This document shows, in pieces, positions 6,653-15,895 of a DNA stretch of 64,000 nucleotides. This stretch comes from Rhodohalobacter barkolensis (GTDB taxonomy: Bacteria > Bacteroidota > Rhodothermia > Balneolales > Balneolaceae), in contig NZ_PISP01000002.1 of assembly GCF_002834295.1 (NCBI RefSeq), positions 248,001-312,000 on the forward strand. The letters run 5' to 3'. The notes below the pieces were generated by a model. That model made no database searches and was not told the origin of the DNA. It saw only the letters and a program-made list of their open reading frames with translations. How positions within the stretch are numbered: position 1 is the first letter of the stretch; every line of letters begins with the position of its first letter. The position numbers were made by a program, and so were the translations under genes.

Positions 6653-7348
6653 ATGCAGCCAAAACAAACCATCCTTTTAGTAGAAGATGAAATTGAGCCG
6701 GCAGAAATGTTGGCCAATTATTTAGAGATGAATAATTTTAACGTATTGATGGCTCATGATGGACTAAAAGCACTGGAATTGATTGAAAAGCATGCGAGTG
6801 ATATTCACCTGGCCGTGCTGGATATTATGGTCCCGAATGTGGATGGGAAAGAGATTTGCAGCGTTATTCGCAATCATCCTGTAATGAGTGATATCCCGGT
6901 TATTTTTCTAACAGCCAAAGATAAAGAGAAAGATGAAATTGAAGGGTTGGAGTTAGGAGCGGATGATTACATTTCAAAACCTGCAAGTTTAAAGCTTGTT
7001 CAGGCACATATTGAATCTCTACTGCGAAGGCAACATCCACAAAACAGTAAATGGATTCAGCATGGTGATCTTTTCCTGGATACCAGTGGGAAAGATCTGT
7101 ACTACAAAGATCACCGTGTAGACTTAACATCAACGGAATACGCTATTGCAGAGATTTTTTTTCAGAATCCGAAAAGGGTTTATTCCCGTCAGGAAATTTT
7201 AGAACATATTGGTGGTGAAGATCGGTTTGTGTTTGACCGAACCGTTGACGTGCATATCAAAAACCTGAGATTGAAATTGGGTGAAGCTTCGGATATGATT
7301 AAGACCTATCGTGGTTTGGGGTATGGAATGAACAGGGAACTCCTTTGA
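6653..7348 (+). CDS. OmpR/PhoB-family response regulator
   Basis: A 231-residue regulator. The receiver domain spans about residues 1-122, with the acidic pair Glu11/Asp12, the phosphate acceptor Asp57 (AVLDIMVP), Thr in FLTAKD and Lys in ISKPAS. The C-terminal winged-helix domain (about 135-230) contains the typical LTSTEYAI and RTVDVHIKNLRLKLG segments. It is followed after one base by its sensor kinase gene, so the two form one operon. The target genes are unknown. Confidence 0.95.
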   Translation: MQPKQTILLVEDEIEPAEMLANYLEMNNFNVLMAHDGLKALELIEKHASDIHLAVLDIMVPNVDGKEICSVIRNHPVMSDIPVIFLTAKDKEKDEIEGLELGADDYISKPASLKLVQAHIESLLRRQHPQNSKWIQHGDLFLDTSGKDLYYKDHRVDLTSTEYAIAEIFFQNPKRVYSRQEILEHIGGEDRFVFDRTVDVHIKNLRLKLGEASDMIKTYRGLGYGMNRELL

Positions 7349-7349
7349 T

Positions 7350-8741
7350 ATGAGTATTCGCTCCAAACTGGCCTGGACGTTTATTTTGCTGTTAATTTTT
7401 GGCATTACAGCAATTAGCAGTTATTCCATTCTTTTTATTCGAAACTATCTTCTCAGTGAAGGGGAGCTTCAAATTGTGAATGATACCGAGTGGCTGGCCA
7501 TCACCATTCAAAATCTGCGACTGGGCAGTGATTTTGAGACGAACCTGAACGAAGCGGCTCGAACATCAGGATACCAAATAGCAGTGTACGATGAGGATGG
7601 AGAGCTCTTTGCAGAGGTGCCTTACCATACCGAAAGAGTGGCGCCCGAACTGATTGATGGCTTAACAACGTCGTTCGATCAGGCCGAGAATGGCGTCTTG
7701 TTGCAGAATCAATCAGATAACGATCTTTTACGCGCATTTTATGAATTGGACAGTGATTTAAATCCGGCCAGTTATCTCTTGGTCAGTATAGAAAAAGATC
7801 AGATTTACGCACCTATTAAAACGATTCGATGGATTATCTACACCGGAATGTTCATTTCAATCGGGCTGGTCATTTTAGTGAGCATTCTCTTTTCGCGCTA
7901 CATATCGAGGCCCATCCTGCAGTTAGAGTCTGCCGCGAGGGATATTGCAGAAGGTAACGTTGACCGGACATTGAACCTAGACAGAAAAGATGAATTTGGA
8001 CAGTTGGCAAAATCATTGAACCGAATGGCAGAACGATTCAGGGCAGACAATGAAGAGATGAAAAAGCTGTACGAGAAGCAGAGTCAATTCTTTGCAGATA
8101 TCACCCACGAAATCAGAAATCCGTTGCATACTATCTCAGGTTCACTCGAAATGCTGGAGTTGGACTCTTTGTCGGAAGAACAGAAGGATCATTACCTGAA
8201 AACCGCTGCCCGGCAGGCTGTACGAATTAACCGGCTATTTGTTGACCTTAAAACCCTTCAGCACTACGATTCAGATTCTCATTTTATTGAGAAAAAGCCA
8301 TTTGATATCAAAGAAATAATCACTCAGGTAATCAGTGTGTACAATTCTCAGGCTGAGAAAAAAGGAATTGATATAGAGTATAATGGCAGCACAGGGGAGG
8401 TTTATGCAGATCCTAACAAAATTGAACAGGTTCTGGAAAATCTGGTTTCAAACGCTGTTAAGTATACCAATGATGGGAAGATTGTGGTTTCGGTAGAGAA
8501 AGATGAAAACCAATTCACCATACATATAAAAGATTCAGGAATTGGAATATCCAATGAACATCTTGAGAGGTTATTTGATCGATTTTACCGGACAGATAAA
8601 GCACGTTCCAGGGATAAGGGAGGGACAGGTTTGGGCCTCGCTGTTGTAAAAAGCATTCTGAGTGCCCACGGATCTGACATTCAAGTTAAGAGCAAGCCCG
8701 GTAAGGGATCAGATTTTTGGTTTACCCTACCGTCGGCTTGA
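7350..8741 (+). CDS. Sensor histidine kinase with HAMP domain
   Basis: A 463-residue membrane kinase. Transmembrane segment 1 covers about residues 8-30, followed by a periplasmic sensor region to about 160 and transmembrane segment 2 (about 161-181). A HAMP linker follows, then HisKA with phosphoacceptor His253 (FADITHEIRNPL). The HATPase domain shows the N-box (ENLVSNAVKY), DSGIGIS and GGTGLGLAVV. It is the partner of the response regulator gene directly upstream. The periplasmic part matches no sensor I recognise. Its 3' end overlaps the converging aquaporin gene by 15 bp. Confidence 0.95.
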   Translation: MSIRSKLAWTFILLLIFGITAISSYSILFIRNYLLSEGELQIVNDTEWLAITIQNLRLGSDFETNLNEAARTSGYQIAVYDEDGELFAEVPYHTERVAPELIDGLTTSFDQAENGVLLQNQSDNDLLRAFYELDSDLNPASYLLVSIEKDQIYAPIKTIRWIIYTGMFISIGLVILVSILFSRYISRPILQLESAARDIAEGNVDRTLNLDRKDEFGQLAKSLNRMAERFRADNEEMKKLYEKQSQFFADITHEIRNPLHTISGSLEMLELDSLSEEQKDHYLKTAARQAVRINRLFVDLKTLQHYDSDSHFIEKKPFDIKEIITQVISVYNSQAEKKGIDIEYNGSTGEVYADPNKIEQVLENLVSNAVKYTNDGKIVVSVEKDENQFTIHIKDSGIGISNEHLERLFDRFYRTDKARSRDKGGTGLGLAVVKSILSAHGSDIQVKSKPGKGSDFWFTLPSA

Positions 8742-9344
8742 AATGTTCACGTGTGCATAGGCAGCCGCCAATCCTCCAACAAGCGGCGAAAGAATATAGA
8801 TGGGTAGATGGTAATAGGAATAACCATTATTAAGCGTATCGGCAGATGTAAAGCCAATATTTAGCGCAGGATTTAATCCAATTCCGGAGTACGGTTCAGC
8901 AAACAGATAGCAGGCGCCTAGCATCCCGCCGGCCATTAGTCCATAGAGTGGATTTCTTCGTCGCCTGTCCGGATAGACGAAGCTTAAGAATGTGAGAATA
9001 AAGAGAAAAGAGAAAACGAACTCTACAGCAATAAAACCGGCAATGGATGTACTTGGGTTTGGTTGAGTGACAAAAGTTGAGCCGGAGAGCCACCAAACAA
9101 ATCCGGAGGCCATTAATGCACCTAATACCTGAGAGGTAAACGTTCCGGTTAAACCGGAGGCAGGAATCTCGTCAGCAGCCCAAGCTGCAAGTGTTACGGC
9201 GGGGTTAAAGTGACCCCCTGACAAATCAGCGCCAATGTAAATAAGTGCCGCCAGTAACAATCCAATTGCAATTGGATCACCTGAAATTCCTAAAGCCGTT
9301 ACTAATAAAAAGGTGCCAAAAAACTCGATATAATATTTGAGCAT
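8727..9344 (-). CDS. Aquaporin / MIP family channel with altered second NPA motif
   Basis: A 205-residue membrane protein with the two half-helix motifs of the aquaporin family: GGHFNPAVTLAAW (first NPA) and GIGLNPALNIGF (second NPA). Six hydrophobic helices fit the family, although the protein is short for it. The residue after the second NPA is normally Arg, part of the aromatic/arginine selectivity filter. Here the codons read Asn-Pro-Ala-Leu, so that Arg is missing. This suggests altered selectivity, perhaps for gases or small neutral solutes rather than strict water transport; that is inference. The gene overlaps the kinase 3' end by 15 bp, tail to tail. Confidence 0.85.
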   Translation of the reverse strand: MLKYYIEFFGTFLLVTALGISGDPIAIGLLLAALIYIGADLSGGHFNPAVTLAAWAADEIPASGLTGTFTSQVLGALMASGFVWWLSGSTFVTQPNPSTSIAGFIAVEFVFSFLFILTFLSFVYPDRRRRNPLYGLMAGGMLGACYLFAEPYSGIGLNPALNIGFTSADTLNNGYSYYHLPIYILSPLVGGLAAAYAHVNISSRR

Positions 9345-9653: not shown

Positions 9654-10790
9654 ATGACAGATAAAATGCGTATTGGTGTAGTGTTGATGAACCTGGGTGG
9701 GCCAACCCATGAAAATAATGTGAGAACATTTCTCAGAAATCTGTTCAAAGACGAGGATATTATAAAATTGGGTGGTGGTACAGCCCAAAACCTGTTTGCA
9801 AATGTAATTTCTAAATTTCGAGCGCCATCTGTAGCGGAGGATTATAAAGAGATTAACGGTTGCCCAAACGGATGCACCGGAAATAAGCACTGTTTTAACC
9901 GGCAGAACAAAGAGGTCTCCACATGCTGTTCTCCGATTAATGGCCTGACTGAAGCTCAAAGACGAGGGTTGGAGAAATACTTTAAGAAAATTTTACCGGA
10001 GCATGAGGTTAAAGTCTACACCTGCATGAGATACTGGCTGCCGTTTGCAGATCAGATCATGGATGACATGGTAGAAGATGGGATAACGCATACGGTTTTG
10101 ATGCCACTTTATCCGCAGTTTTCATGGACAACCACAGGGAGTAGTTTCCGTGATTGGGAAAACACTCTCAAGGAAAAATTTCCGAATGGCGAAAAACCAT
10201 GGAAAGAGTTTCATGTAAAGAATTATTACAAGAATGAAGCGTACCTTGGTGCCATCAATGACCGAATTGATGAGGCGCTGGGTGAGATGGACGAAGAGAC
10301 CAGACGTAAAACTCATCTCATATTTAGCGCACATGGAACACCGTTGCTGGAAGTGAGAAGTGGTGACCCCTATACGGTAGAAATTAAAGAGACGATGGAA
10401 GCCGTGATGGAGCGAAGAGAAGAGAAAAATTCGTACTGGCTCGGTTTTCAATCAAAAGTTGGGCCTCAAAAGTGGACTCAGCCAAATACGGAGGAGTTGG
10501 TTAAACGACATCTGGAATATGGCATCAAGAATTTTCTGATGGTGCCCATTGCATTTGTGACAGATCATATCGAAACTCTGTACGAACTTGGTGTGGAGTT
10601 GGTTGAGGATCTCGAAGAAGAAGGATTTGAATTTGAAAGCCTGAAGGTGATGAAGGGTCTGAACGATCATCCGGGTTTTATTCAGGCATTGGCAGAAGAG
10701 ACTCTGAACTCATTAAAGCATGAGATCTCTCCGGATGCCGTTCAATGGGATCATGTAGAAATAACAAGAAAGAAAGAAGTAACAACGTAA
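9654..10790 (+). CDS. hemH: Ferrochelatase with cysteine-rich insertion
   Basis: Ferrochelatase inserts Fe(II) into a porphyrin at the end of haem synthesis. The 378-residue protein has the family start VVLMNLGGP, the metal-binding active-site motif LIFSAHGTP with His227, and the conserved PQKWTQPN and FVTDHIETLYEL. Unusually, the substrate loop, which normally reads GGSPL, is split by about 20 residues containing five cysteines (Cys70, 74, 80, 91 and 92, within residues 68-93). These could ligate an iron-sulphur cluster or zinc; known Fe-S ferrochelatases usually carry their ligands elsewhere. I start at ATG 9654; a GTG two codons upstream is weaker. It is the first gene of the haem operon, 3 bp before hemA. 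Confidence 0.93.
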   Translation: MTDKMRIGVVLMNLGGPTHENNVRTFLRNLFKDEDIIKLGGGTAQNLFANVISKFRAPSVAEDYKEINGCPNGCTGNKHCFNRQNKEVSTCCSPINGLTEAQRRGLEKYFKKILPEHEVKVYTCMRYWLPFADQIMDDMVEDGITHTVLMPLYPQFSWTTTGSSFRDWENTLKEKFPNGEKPWKEFHVKNYYKNEAYLGAINDRIDEALGEMDEETRRKTHLIFSAHGTPLLEVRSGDPYTVEIKETMEAVMERREEKNSYWLGFQSKVGPQKWTQPNTEELVKRHLEYGIKNFLMVPIAFVTDHIETLYELGVELVEDLEEEGFEFESLKVMKGLNDHPGFIQALAEETLNSLKHEISPDAVQWDHVEITRKKEVTT

Positions 10791-10793
10791 AGA

Positions 10794-12056
10794 ATGGTTC
10801 ATCCAACTGTTCAGGATTTTGTAGTTATCGGGATAAATCACTGGGATGCCCCGGTAGAGATTCGTGAAAAGTTCAGCCTTAGTGATGAGGGAAAAGAACT
10901 TTTAATGGAAGGGGCACGCCGTGAAGGGATTACCAGTCTTTTTTTGGTGTCAACGTGTAATCGAACGGAGATTTTTGCTCAAAATGTCTCAACCCGTGAA
11001 TTGATTCGACTGCTTACCAATTACTCTTATGGTACACTCGATGAGTTTCATCGGTATGGATTTGAACATGAGGGAGAACGAGCCGTACAGCACCTTTTTA
11101 AAGTAGCTACAGGCCTTGATTCGCAGATCCTTGGGGATCTCCAAATTGTTAAGCAGGTTAAAGAGGGCTACGAGCAGGCTGCCCGACAGGAGATGGTATC
11201 CGGTGAATTCCATCGATTAATGCAGCACGTTTTCAGAGCTCACAAGCGCTCTCGAAGTGAAACAACGCTTGGACGGGGTGCAGCAACGGTAGCTTACGCC
11301 GCAGTTCAATTTGCCTTGCGAACCTTTGAGAATCTTACCAATAAGAACATCCTTCTTGTTGGTACCGGCAAAATTGGTAAAGTTACTTGCAAGAATCTTG
11401 TAAATCTGGGTGCAAGCAAATTGACGCTGATCAACAGAACTCGGGATCGGGCTGAATTTGTTGCGGATAAGTTTAACCTGGAAGTTGCGGATATGAATCA
11501 GCTTCCTGAGCAGATAGCGGATGCAGACCTGGTTATTGTTGCAACCGGTGCAGATACAGCTATTATTCGTCCGGAGCACATGCAGCCATCGATGGAGAAT
11601 CCGAAATTTAAAGTGATGCTTGATCTTTCCGTACCGCGAAATATCGATCCGAATGTTGCTACTCTTGACTTTGTGGATGTGGCAAATATGGACATGTTGG
11701 GTGATGTTACTGATGAGGCATATAAAAAACGGGAACAGCAGGTTCCTGCCGTTAAGAATATTATCAACGAAGAGCTCTCAGATTATAAGCTTTGGCTGAA
11801 TGAACAGCGTGTGGTTCCAACGATTAAAGCGCTTACCCGCAAGTTTGACTCTATCCGAGAAGATGAGCTGAACTTCTTTAAAAATAAAATTTCGACGGGA
11901 GATTTTGACAAAATTGAAAATATGACCCGGCGTATTGTGAACAAAATCGCAGCTTACAGTATTGAACATCTGCGTGATCATCACGAATCTGAAGAAGTTG
12001 CAGATATGGTAGCCGAAATGTTTAAGCTCGAAGCCAAAAATGGCAATCATGAGTAG
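10794..12056 (+). CDS. hemA: Glutamyl-tRNA reductase
   Basis: A 420-residue NADPH-dependent enzyme that reduces Glu-tRNA(Glu) to glutamate-1-semialdehyde, the first committed step of the C5 haem pathway. The thioester-forming Cys55 lies in LVSTCNRTEI. GLDSQILGD and the nucleotide-binding ILLVGTGKIGKV segment follow, and a C-terminal helical dimerisation domain ends the protein. It starts 3 bp after hemH and overlaps hemC, consistent with cotranscription. The partner GSA aminomutase (hemL) and hemB are not in this window. Confidence 0.96.
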   Translation: MVHPTVQDFVVIGINHWDAPVEIREKFSLSDEGKELLMEGARREGITSLFLVSTCNRTEIFAQNVSTRELIRLLTNYSYGTLDEFHRYGFEHEGERAVQHLFKVATGLDSQILGDLQIVKQVKEGYEQAARQEMVSGEFHRLMQHVFRAHKRSRSETTLGRGAATVAYAAVQFALRTFENLTNKNILLVGTGKIGKVTCKNLVNLGASKLTLINRTRDRAEFVADKFNLEVADMNQLPEQIADADLVIVATGADTAIIRPEHMQPSMENPKFKVMLDLSVPRNIDPNVATLDFVDVANMDMLGDVTDEAYKKREQQVPAVKNIINEELSDYKLWLNEQRVVPTIKALTRKFDSIREDELNFFKNKISTGDFDKIENMTRRIVNKIAAYSIEHLRDHHESEEVADMVAEMFKLEAKNGNHE

Positions 12057-12963
12057 TAAGATTCGAATTGGCACCAGAGACAGCGAATTGGCAACCTGGC
12101 AGGCAAAACAGGTTCAGTCAAAGTTAAAAGAGTTTGGATTCGAAGCTGAACTGTTTTTTGTGAAGTCGGAGGGAGATCTGGATCTAACAACTCCTCTGAC
12201 GGAAATGGGTGGAAAAGGAGTTTTTACCAAGGCATTGGATGATGCGCTTCTAGAAAACAGGATAGATATTGCGGTTCATTCATTTAAAGATCTGCCTACC
12301 GAAAACCCGCTGCCGCTTACTGTTAGTGCTGTAATGGAAAGAGAAGATCCGCGCGATGCTTTGGTTGCACCAAAAGGTGTTGACTTTCTGGAGGATGAAT
12401 CATCAAAAGCTATCATTGCTACAAGCAGTAACCGCAGAAAAGCACAGTGGCTGCATCGCTACCCTAATCACGAGATTACGAATATTCGCGGCAACGTAAA
12501 TACCCGTTTGCGGAAAGTGAATGAGAATGGATGGAATGGTGCTATTTTTGCAGCCGCAGGTTTGAAGCGGATTGGACTGGACAATAATATTTCTGTTTAT
12601 CTCGACTGGATGGTTCCGGCACCGGCGCAAGGCGCTATGGCTGTCATGATTCGGGAAGAGGACCAAAAGATGCTGGAAATTACTTCTCAACTAAATCATA
12701 AAGAGACAGCAATCTGTACAGGTATTGAGCGAGAGCTACTGAACGAGATGGAGGCAGGCTGCAGTGCCCCGGTAGGTGCTTTTGCGGAAATCGTTGATGG
12801 AGACGTTCATCTTTCGGCAATTGCACTAAAAATTGACGGGTCTCTACAGTATGATATTGAAGTGTCGGCCCCGGTGCATACTGCAAAAGGGCTGGGAAGA
12901 GAGGCGGGAAGAAAACTGCTCGATATGGGTGCCTCAGAAATTGTCGCCGATCTACGTTCTTAA
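12049..12963 (+). CDS. hemC: Hydroxymethylbilane synthase (porphobilinogen deaminase)
   Basis: A 304-residue enzyme that polymerises four porphobilinogens. It has RIGTRDSELATWQA at the start, VHSFKDLPT with the catalytic Asp, SSNRRKAQ, and MEAGCSAPVGA with Cys238 carrying the dipyrromethane cofactor. I prefer ATG 12049, overlapping the hemA stop by 8 bp; an in-frame ATG at 12040 would add three residues. Length fits the family (about 305-315). Confidence 0.96.
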   Translation: MSSKIRIGTRDSELATWQAKQVQSKLKEFGFEAELFFVKSEGDLDLTTPLTEMGGKGVFTKALDDALLENRIDIAVHSFKDLPTENPLPLTVSAVMEREDPRDALVAPKGVDFLEDESSKAIIATSSNRRKAQWLHRYPNHEITNIRGNVNTRLRKVNENGWNGAIFAAAGLKRIGLDNNISVYLDWMVPAPAQGAMAVMIREEDQKMLEITSQLNHKETAICTGIERELLNEMEAGCSAPVGAFAEIVDGDVHLSAIALKIDGSLQYDIEVSAPVHTAKGLGREAGRKLLDMGASEIVADLRS

Positions 12964-12991
12964 TTGCAATCAACCTGAATCGGCAAATCCT

Positions 12992-13729
12992 ATGAAAAAA
13001 CGTCATAAGATTTTAGTCACGCGGGAGCTGACGGATCAACAGTTACAGCTGGCTGATGATTTGGGATTAGACGTAACGGTTGAACCTGCCATTCGTTTTG
13101 AATTCAGGAGTAATTGGAGTTCAGTTGTAAACTCCATCGAAAATGCGGAAACTCGAATTTTTGCATTTACCAGCCAGAACGGTGTCAAAGCTTTTCAAAA
13201 ACTGATAGACCATGGCTATAAGTTGCCGGATGGTGTGGTGTTTTATGCCGTAGGTGATAAAACAGCCTCTGCACTTGAGGAGTTGGGTTATTTAGCTTTG
13301 GTTCCTGAATTGAGCTATGGTGATCAGCTTGGTGAGAAGATCGTTTCAGATTTGAAACAGACGGGTGTAGAAGATGCAACGGTGTTTCATTTTTGTGGAA
13401 ATCGTCGCCGGGAAGAGATGAGGCAAGTTTTAGAGGATACAGCTATCAACGTCAAAGACCTGGTAGTTTACGAAACCATTTTAAATCAGCTGAATGTGGA
13501 TAGTATTGATGCAGATGGAATTTTGTTCTACAGTCCTAGTGCGGTGGAAGCCTTTCGAAAGAGCGGCGGATTCAGACGTGAAAAACTACCTGAACTGTTT
13601 GCTATCGGCCACACTACGGCCCGGGAATTGAGCATCGAATCTGGACGTAATGTCCATATATCACCAAAAACAAATACCGAAGATTTTTTAAGATTCACGG
13701 CACAGGTTTTGCGCGAAAGCAGAGATTGA
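12992..13729 (+). CDS. hemD: Uroporphyrinogen-III synthase
   Basis: A 245-residue protein that closes hydroxymethylbilane with ring-D inversion. HemD is poorly conserved. The call rests on its two-lobed pattern: KILVTREL at the start, FAFTSQNGVKAF, an ILFYSPSAVEAF segment near the end, and AIGHTTARELS. Its position between hemC and hemE supports it. I place the start at ATG 12992, 28 bp after hemC; the longer open frame that begins inside hemC is not coding. Confidence 0.88.
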   Translation: MKKRHKILVTRELTDQQLQLADDLGLDVTVEPAIRFEFRSNWSSVVNSIENAETRIFAFTSQNGVKAFQKLIDHGYKLPDGVVFYAVGDKTASALEELGYLALVPELSYGDQLGEKIVSDLKQTGVEDATVFHFCGNRRREEMRQVLEDTAINVKDLVVYETILNQLNVDSIDADGILFYSPSAVEAFRKSGGFRREKLPELFAIGHTTARELSIESGRNVHISPKTNTEDFLRFTAQVLRESRD

Positions 13730-13759: not shown

Positions 13760-14803
13760 ATGTCTCACAATTTTCCGGAACTTAAAAACGACCTGTTTCT
13801 CAGAGCTCTTAATGGTGAAGAGGTTGAACGTCCGCCGGTATGGATGATGCGGCAAGCCGGCCGGTATCTGCCACAGTATATGGTTTTGAGAAAAAAGTAT
13901 ACGTTTTTTGAACGGGTGGAGACTCCTGAACTTGCTTGTGAAATTACCATTCAACCCATTGATGAATTGGAGCCGGATGCAGCCATCATATTCTCCGATA
14001 TTCTGACCGTTCCTCAAGCACTGAACATTGACGTGCAGATGGTTCCCGGGAAAGGTCCTGTGATGGGGAATCCCATTCGAACCGTAGATGACGCATTTGC
14101 AATCCTGGCCGAAGATGTACCTGAGAAGTTAAGTCACGTGATGGATGCTATAACTCTTACCCGAAAAGAGTTGAACGGCAGGGTGCCGCTAATCGGATTT
14201 GCCGGCGCTCCATGGACACTTTTTTGTTATATGGTTCAGGGTGAAGGGTCCAAGAATTTTGATAAGGCGAAGTCGTTTCTCTATCAGCATCCTGATGCAT
14301 CAAGACATGTAATGAAAGAGCTGACGAAAGCCACGATCGATTATTTGAAAGCCCAGGTGAAAGCCGGTGCTCAGGCCGTTCAGGTTTTTGATTCATGGTC
14401 GGGTTTACTCAGTCCGGACGATTTTAATGAGTGGGCGTTACCCTATTTGATGGAGATCACTCAGTCGATTAAAGAGGTTCCGGTGATACTGTTCGCAAAG
14501 GGATCCTGGTACGCATTGGAACGGTTAAGTTTTAAAAGTGGTGCTTCTGCACTCGGGATCGACTGGACAATTTCACCTGAATTTGCCCGTGAAAAAACCC
14601 GAAATGAAATCACGCTTCAGGGTAACTACGACCCGACTCACCTGCTGGCACCTATTCCGGAAATCAGGAAACAGACAAAGCGCATGATTGATCGATTTGG
14701 CGTTCAGCGATATATTGCAAACCTGGGGCACGGAATTCTCCCTCACGTTCCGGTTGATCACGCACGTGCATTTGTTGATACCGTTAAAGAGTATGAACGG
14801 TGA
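13760..14803 (+). CDS. hemE: Uroporphyrinogen decarboxylase
   Basis: A 347-residue enzyme that decarboxylates the four acetate side chains of uroporphyrinogen III to give coproporphyrinogen III. It contains the signature RPPVWMMRQAGRYLPQY, the IIFSDIL motif with the catalytic Asp, FAGAPWTL, FDSWSGLLSP and the C-terminal NLGHGILPHVP. It follows hemD by 30 bp. A palindromic repeat 6 bp after its stop could act as a terminator or attenuator before hemF. Confidence 0.97.
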   Translation: MSHNFPELKNDLFLRALNGEEVERPPVWMMRQAGRYLPQYMVLRKKYTFFERVETPELACEITIQPIDELEPDAAIIFSDILTVPQALNIDVQMVPGKGPVMGNPIRTVDDAFAILAEDVPEKLSHVMDAITLTRKELNGRVPLIGFAGAPWTLFCYMVQGEGSKNFDKAKSFLYQHPDASRHVMKELTKATIDYLKAQVKAGAQAVQVFDSWSGLLSPDDFNEWALPYLMEITQSIKEVPVILFAKGSWYALERLSFKSGASALGIDWTISPEFAREKTRNEITLQGNYDPTHLLAPIPEIRKQTKRMIDRFGVQRYIANLGHGILPHVPVDHARAFVDTVKEYER

Positions 14804-14977: not shown

Positions 14978-15895
14978 ATGTCAACCATCAGAGATTCGTT
15001 TACTTCCTACATTGAAAATCTCCAGGACGAAATCTGTTCCGCTTTTGAAGAAGTTGATAGCACAGCAAAATTCCGTGAGGACAACTGGAGTCGAAAAGGA
15101 GGGGGTGGCGGAAGAACACGTGTGATTGAAAAGGGAGATGTATTTGAAAAGGGAGGAGTAAATATTTCTACGGTGCACGGAGAACTGCCCGACCCGATAA
15201 AAGAACACTTTAAGGTTGAGAACGGATGGTTTTGGGCGGGCGGAATTTCCTTGGTTATTCATCCCAAAAACCCGATGGTGCCAACCGTACATGCTAACTT
15301 CAGATATTTCGAGCTCTATGATGATGAAGAGATGAAAAATGCTGTGGATGGCTGGTTTGGCGGTGGCGCAGATTTAACACCCTACTATCTGTTTGAAGAG
15401 GATGCAGTTCATTTTCATACCGAACTGAAAAAGGCTTGTGACAGGCATGGAGAGGATCTCTACCCAAAATTTAAAAAGCAGTGTGATGAGTATTTTTATA
15501 ATTCGCATCGGGGTGAAGCCCGGGGAATTGGCGGGCTGTTTTTCGACTACCTGAGGGAAGATGATGAGCGTTCATTGAAAGATTGGCACGCATTTACAGA
15601 AGGTGTCGGTTCGGCGTTTTTAGATGCCTATCTGCCGATATTAAAAGACAGAATTCAGGAACCCTATAATCGTGCCCAGCGATATTGGCAGGAAGTTCGA
15701 AGGGGCAGGTATGTTGAGTTCAATTTAATTCATGACCGGGGAACTCTTTTCGGTTTAAAAACCGATGGAAGAATTGAATCGATATTGATGAGCTTACCCC
15801 CGCAGGTTCGATGGGATTACGATTTTACTCCAAAACAGGGATCTAAAGAGGCTGAATTGCTGCATGTTTTGGAGAACCCAAAAGATTGGGTATAA
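14978..15895 (+). CDS. hemF: Oxygen-dependent coproporphyrinogen III oxidase
   Basis: A 305-residue enzyme that uses O2 to convert coproporphyrinogen III to protoporphyrinogen IX, implying aerobic growth. Signature segments are NWSRKGGGGGRTRVI, HANFRYFE, WFGGGADLTPYY, EARGIGGLFFDY and GRYVEFNLIHDRGT. The gene is 174 bp after hemE, a wider gap than within hemH-hemE. It is bracketed by direct copies of a palindromic repeat, so it may be transcribed separately or have joined the operon later. No protoporphyrinogen oxidase gene is in the window. Confidence 0.96.
   Translation: MSTIRDSFTSYIENLQDEICSAFEEVDSTAKFREDNWSRKGGGGGRTRVIEKGDVFEKGGVNISTVHGELPDPIKEHFKVENGWFWAGGISLVIHPKNPMVPTVHANFRYFELYDDEEMKNAVDGWFGGGADLTPYYLFEEDAVHFHTELKKACDRHGEDLYPKFKKQCDEYFYNSHRGEARGIGGLFFDYLREDDERSLKDWHAFTEGVGSAFLDAYLPILKDRIQEPYNRAQRYWQEVRRGRYVEFNLIHDRGTLFGLKTDGRIESILMSLPPQVRWDYDFTPKQGSKEAELLHVLENPKDWV

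Follow-up and report, generated by a model that had tools for sequence, protein, structure and literature searches.

The window analyzed here, a stretch of 64,000 nucleotides of Rhodohalobacter barkolensis DNA (contig NZ_PISP01000002.1, positions 248,001 to 312,000), encodes a ferrochelatase, HemH, that carries a cassette of five Cys residues in its substrate loop. Our analysis indicated that this protein is probably a working protoporphyrin ferrochelatase holding an iron-sulfur cluster, most likely [2Fe-2S], on four of the five invariant loop Cys residues, near the propionate clamp; enzyme activity, metal binding, cluster type, and the effect on the clamp are what we infer from sequence comparison and structural prediction. 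A cluster on four of these residues most simply accounts for their invariance, the adjacent Cys pair among them, the absence of the other sites from this protein, and the history of the family.

Identification of the ferrochelatase and its cysteine cassette

HemH (P0001, 374 residues) is encoded by hemH (9666..10790), with alternative starts at GTG 9648 and ATG 9654; all of these features and the codons given below lie on the forward strand, and residue numbers refer to P0001, counted from ATG 9666. Profile search assigned the protein to the Pfam family Ferrochelatase (PF00762; E 3.9e-89), and it scored 269 bits against the NCBIfam family hemH (TIGR00109; cut-off, 124.6). The best structural match of an AlphaFold model based on 42 alignment rows (predicted template modeling score, 0.82; mean predicted local distance difference test [pLDDT], 80) was human ferrochelatase 2hre (Z 38.3; root mean square deviation, 2.0 over 324 residues; 33% identity). 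Alignment showed that the catalytic and core residues were kept, namely His223 (10332..10334; human H263), H301 (H341), Glu303 (10572..10574; E343), and R122 (R164), as were the propionate residues R52 (R115), Tyr60 (9843..9845; Y123), and Ser89 (9930..9932; S130). Protoporphyrin is the likely substrate because HemF and HemY (321.7 bits) are present and no coproheme decarboxylase (PF06778) match was found in the genome, which is 97% complete. No HemJ (PF03653) was found in the genome.

The cassette (9861..9929) comprises 23 residues of the GG-SPI loop with the pattern C66-x3-C70-x5-C76-x10-C87-C88. Alignment to solved human ferrochelatases placed it as an insertion just before SPI, shortly downstream of Tyr60 and with Ser89 immediately after Cys88; the spacing between these Tyr and Ser residues was 28 residues versus 6 in the human enzyme, and the loop was 22 residues longer. 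An earlier note on this DNA had described an insertion of about 20 residues in the substrate loop with Cys at 70, 74, 80, 91, and 92, and both statements agreed with our data, the residue numbers being exact when counted from ATG 9654 (66, 70, 76, 87, and 88 from ATG 9666). A sixth Cys residue, Cys120 (10023..10025; VYTCMRYW), was missing from that list. Comparison with sequences at 31 loci, mostly from other families of the order (L174–L204), showed that 28 of them have Ala at this position and the other 3 have Cys, and Cys120 was rejected as a member of the core motif.

Human Y123 and S130 hydrogen-bond porphyrin propionate 6, R115 forms a salt bridge with propionate 7, and G129-S130-P131 lies in the α3–α4 loop, where S130 was proposed to aid mouth closure (PMC9133952). 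In Listeria CpfC, S53 bonds propionate 4 of coproporphyrin (PMC9794026), and the alignment ends indicated Ser89 as its equivalent. The cassette is located beside the porphyrin propionate site.

A frameshift or assembly artifact was ruled out, as the frame is open in relatives with synonymous changes. The 774-residue open frame of locus L083, considered as a possible fusion, reads as a normal gene preceded by a long open stretch in frame.

Conservation of the cassette

Among the matches listed from 244 genomes of the class, 79 were full-length matches to the cassette profile, all from the window's own order and spanning five of its families. The sequences of all of these were read, and the five Cys residues with the spacing C-x3-C-x5-C-x10-C-C were retained in 79 of 79; the earlier note had made its proposal dependent on conservation in close relatives, and this expectation held. 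The other class matches among those listed begin at profile position 25 at the least, with the cassette occupying profile positions 17–39; two sequences cut by contig ends (G410 and L143) were not scored as motif-less in this count. In an evenly drawn sample of the phylum, 27 of 394 genomes matched at E 1e-25, all of them in the window's order.

Codon usage was counted in another set of 79 distinct open reading frames (ORFs), including the named loci; the claim of invariance rests on the class matches, because these ORFs were chosen by the motif itself. All five Cys columns were invariant in the ORFs, and both TGC and TGT were used at every position (each 23 to 56 of 79; TGC 51 and TGT 28 for the first Cys). 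N78 and R79 were nearly invariant, and the remaining cassette residues varied apart from three considered below. Counted from about 12 residues ahead of the NLGGP motif, 28 of the enzymes had only these five Cys residues, 28 had six, 21 had seven, and 2 had eight.

A contig scan with two peptide patterns from the window's HemH family, the only scan that reached beyond Bacteroidota and one that under-reports deeper branches, returned a metagenome bin and Rhodohalobacter halophilus as the closest named relatives, followed by Balneolaceae bins. Named strains with the cassette are R. halophilus, Fodinibius sediminis, and F. roseus.

The cassette also occurs outside the order. The metagenome bin Bacteroidetes bacterium ACE_BAC9 (L142) carries it in a sequence of 52% identity, and full-length cassette matches were found in 5 of the 22 genomes of its order, its own included. 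L142 and L226–L229 keep the five Cys residues at 46–52% identity; the spacing is unchanged in L226–L228, where CCSPI is replaced by CCSAT or CCSST, whereas it is one residue shorter ahead of CC in L229 (x9 instead of x10). Matches at E 1e-20 were obtained from 6 of 395 genomes in the class of L142, namely those five and G638, the loop of which is a plain GGSSPI. In an 11-row alignment (A4), 7 of the 23 cassette columns were invariant, and five of these were the cysteines. The patchy presence of the cassette in this order suggests horizontal transfer or repeated loss. The Cys pattern is not a product of chance, given its retention in 79 of 79 class matches, the use of both codons, and its persistence in sequences with only 43–52% identity across the segment.

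Three types of cysteine site in ferrochelatases

The human cluster ligands are missing from the window HemH: alignment showed Trp154 in place of C196, Lys for C403, Thr for C406, and a gap for C411. Alignment and pattern checks of this protein also revealed no Cys insertion after the catalytic His, no DPYCC pair, and no C-terminal Cys, in line with the earlier claim that the site differs from known ligand places.

A Cys insertion follows the catalytic His in 20 distinct ORFs from elsewhere in the Bacteroidota, some of them from different genera of the window's family (e.g., SYHGVPERHIKKRDITGDHCLKCENCCEVTSPAHNYC in L062). Of the 13 sequences read from other families of the class, 12 had DPYCC and a C-terminal CxxC tail, and L068 had neither; DPYCC, located shortly after the catalytic His, was accompanied by the tail CxxC in all 12 distinct ORFs that carry it (L021, L067, L069–L076, L207, and L208). 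DPYCC and CxxC are a likely ligand set for the tail type, unlike the human set. These rows were labeled Rhodothermia-like because a survey of ferrochelatases names Rhodothermus and Salinibacter as carriers of the tail type (PMC8529089).

Classification of 147 distinct ORFs yielded 80 of the loop type, 20 of the post-histidine type, 12 with DPYCC and a C-terminal CxxC, 35 with none of these sites, and none with two kinds together. L226–L229 were obtained after this count and raise the loop type to 84. The set was not random, as 29 of the 35 ORFs without a site were top-scoring Pfam matches, and those 35 include the cut-off L143 as well as L079 and L091, the post-histidine stretch of which escaped the pattern.

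In a tree inferred with the cassette cut out, the loop rows fell on one side of a single branch (support, 100/97), and the tail and post-histidine types were supported at 100/99 and 100/100, respectively. The tail-type rows were placed near the loop type, with a joining fork of 82/56. A first tree, inferred before L226–L230 were added, agreed for the loop and post-histidine types. The rows of both trees were hand-picked (72 chosen and 14 dropped for the first; 57 chosen and one, L208, dropped for the second). On these trees, the loop type forms a single lineage. The cassette looks like a third Cys site in the ferrochelatase family, because the published type of insertion in Bacteroidota follows the catalytic His, unlike the loop cassette. 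Membership of the cassette in that published class, as it occurs in Bacteroidota, was rejected on the grounds of its other place and other clade.

Proposed function of the cassette and alternatives

In the mechanism that we propose, the cluster, most likely [2Fe-2S], would be bound by four of the five Cys residues, including the adjacent Cys87 and Cys88, in a cassette positioned between α3 and α4 at the active-site mouth and flanked by Tyr60 and Ser89. Because the cassette sits between these two propionate-6 residues, the intactness or redox state of the cluster would determine how the propionate clamp is shaped and how the mouth closes. On the tree, the cassette has a single origin within this lineage of ferrochelatases, separate from the C-terminal and post-histidine sites, in whose place it stands. 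A more far-reaching account, which we put forward tentatively, is that this is a third, independently evolved iron-sulfur site, at which loss or reduction of the cluster may reshape the Tyr60–Ser89 loop and open or shut the mouth, such that heme output would track iron-sulfur supply or redox state. If this account is true, three lineages would have reached the same end with different Cys sites, and the bacterial cluster, whose role is stated to be unknown in the survey (PMC8529089), would have a selected function; the occurrence of a third site instead of the other two among related lineages is an argument for selection on the cluster. The cassette adjoins the propionate clamp, so its effect on substrate binding is open to direct mutational test, and locus L230 (G561), which lacks the cassette, is a natural control.

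Several observations weigh against this interpretation. The cassette has five cysteines rather than four, and one is left unexplained; G69, G72, and S85 of the cassette were likewise invariant in the 79 ORFs. Structural modeling, as suggested in the earlier note, supported the ferrochelatase fold but gave no pre-formed site: pLDDT in the cassette was near 50 (<50 at residues 65–72 and 78–83), and this low confidence makes the model uninformative regarding ligand geometry. A sequence search of 35 residues among solved structures for a like motif returned one match, with an E of 5.6, and thus no structure resembling the cassette. A strict clade of all loop rows costs 8.0 log units, although it is not rejected (p-value of the approximately unbiased test, 0.224), and the tree program warned of long branches meeting. 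By the patterns used, 35 of the 147 ferrochelatases had no site at all, indicating that these enzymes often manage without a cluster. According to the survey, bacterial cluster ferrochelatases stay active as Cys-to-Ser variants (PMC8529089), so it is not safe to assume that the cluster tightly controls catalysis. Finally, L230, which falls within the loop clade (97/82 with L229), has a plain GGGSPL without the cassette, which shows that the enzyme can dispense with it.

Conserved Cys-rich loops often bind zinc, and the main alternative, which we regard as unlikely, is that structural zinc on the five cysteines stiffens the inserted loop with no redox or iron sensing. The computed results do not separate zinc from iron-sulfur; however, the cassette has no CxxC knuckle, its adjacent CC layout resembles the published internal-insertion iron-sulfur motif, and other ferrochelatase lineages hold iron-sulfur in their Cys sites, as described in the survey (PMC8529089). 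The contact of the loop with the propionate clamp would also suit a thiol redox switch, in which disulfides formed under oxidative stress alter the mouth loop without a bound metal. We consider this less probable still, since the spacing of all five Cys residues was fixed in 80 distinct ORFs, which is stricter than a disulfide pair needs, and their number is odd. There is even less in favor of an iron-handling site, at which the cysteines would accept Fe(II) from a donor and hand it to the active site: the location at the mouth would be appropriate, but delivery of labile Fe(II) is an unusual role for a site made up of Cys alone, and L230 and cassette-free ferrochelatases manage without the cassette. 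A heme-regulatory Cys-Pro motif acting in feedback through product binding, suggested by the Pro after the first cassette Cys in the window HemH, was rejected as scarcely credible, because this position varied (69 Pro, 9 Thr, and 1 Ala in 79 distinct ORFs) while the Cys was present in 79 of 79.

Genomic context of hemH

hemH is the first gene of hemH-hemA-hemC-hemD-hemE-hemF, all on the forward strand. It is followed by genes identified by Pfam for glutamyl-tRNA reductase (hemA; GlutR; 10794..12056), porphobilinogen deaminase (hemC; 12040..12963), uroporphyrinogen-III synthase (hemD; 12992..13729, with the start chosen from the ORF and HEM4 matched on 12986–13726), uroporphyrinogen decarboxylase (hemE; URO-D; 13760..14803), and coproporphyrinogen III oxidase (hemF; 14978..15895). 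hemA was downstream of hemH at 40 of 41 loci (L102–L142), with L107 ending at hemH. The genome encodes two SUF-type proteins, so the cell is probably able to build iron-sulfur clusters.

A response regulator and a HAMP histidine kinase are encoded upstream of hemH (6653–8741), and the kinase was found upstream at 36 of 37 loci (L102–L138; L105 had too little upstream DNA) and at none of the four loci L139–L142. This pair may respond to heme or iron in the window's family. The gene at 8727–9344 on the reverse strand, divergent from hemH, presumably encodes an aquaporin, judging from its NPA motifs; such a gene was located near hemH at 13 of the 37 loci L102–L138.

Four genomes of the window's family (G092, G042, G100, and G432; loci L062, L063, L065, and L066, respectively) encode the Bacteroidota-type HemH with the post-histidine insertion. 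Downstream of hemH at these loci come a HemY-like flavin amine-oxidase gene, identified by Pfam on L062 only, and, after it, a hemA with only 38–41% identity to that of the window; the heme operon looks to have been replaced. Eight other genomes of the family, 98–99% complete (G077, G139, G191, G046, G127, G143, G065, and G175), yielded no PF00762 match; these are possible heme auxotrophs or users of another pathway.

Comparison with known iron-sulfur ferrochelatases

The [2Fe-2S] ferrochelatase of Myxococcus xanthus, which has an internal insertion, was reportedly first described by Shepherd and others. According to the survey, cluster ligands occupy either of two positions, an internal insertion of 22–34 residues or the C-terminus, with the cluster motif CX(1,11)CX(1,11)C; in the internal-insertion type, both residues of an adjacent CC are ligands, and insertion-bearing sequences fall in one large clade (PMC8529089). 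Eighteen sequences with the motif elsewhere were set aside in that survey (PMC8529089). The main text of PMC8529089 contains no "Balneol-", and a loop-type sequence may sit unremarked in its supplement. In the literature searched, which lacked most subscription papers, no other report of the loop site was found, nor any paper that mentions Balneola or Balneolaceae together with ferrochelatase or hemH.

The window cassette contains CX(1,11)CX(1,11)C with an adjacent CC in a short insertion. Like the type known from M. xanthus and Bacteroidetes, the window HemH has a short internal Cys insertion with an adjacent CC in an otherwise ordinary core. However, the Bacteroidota insertion follows the SYHGxPER His motif, a position taken from aligned Bacteroidota sequences with the M. 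xanthus protein outside the alignment, whereas the insertion in the window HemH is found about 145 residues closer to the N-terminus, within the GG-SPI loop. On the tree, these types belong to separate deep clades. The core is also homologous to that of the C-terminal [2Fe-2S] type (human, M. tuberculosis, Caulobacter, and the tail type of the class), although the window HemH has no C-terminal Cys, no equivalent of human C196, and no DPYCC of the tail type. The core and the SPI serine are shared with ferrochelatases that have no site, such as Bacillus CpfC and the rows of our set without a site, in which, by contrast, the loop is short and has no cassette.
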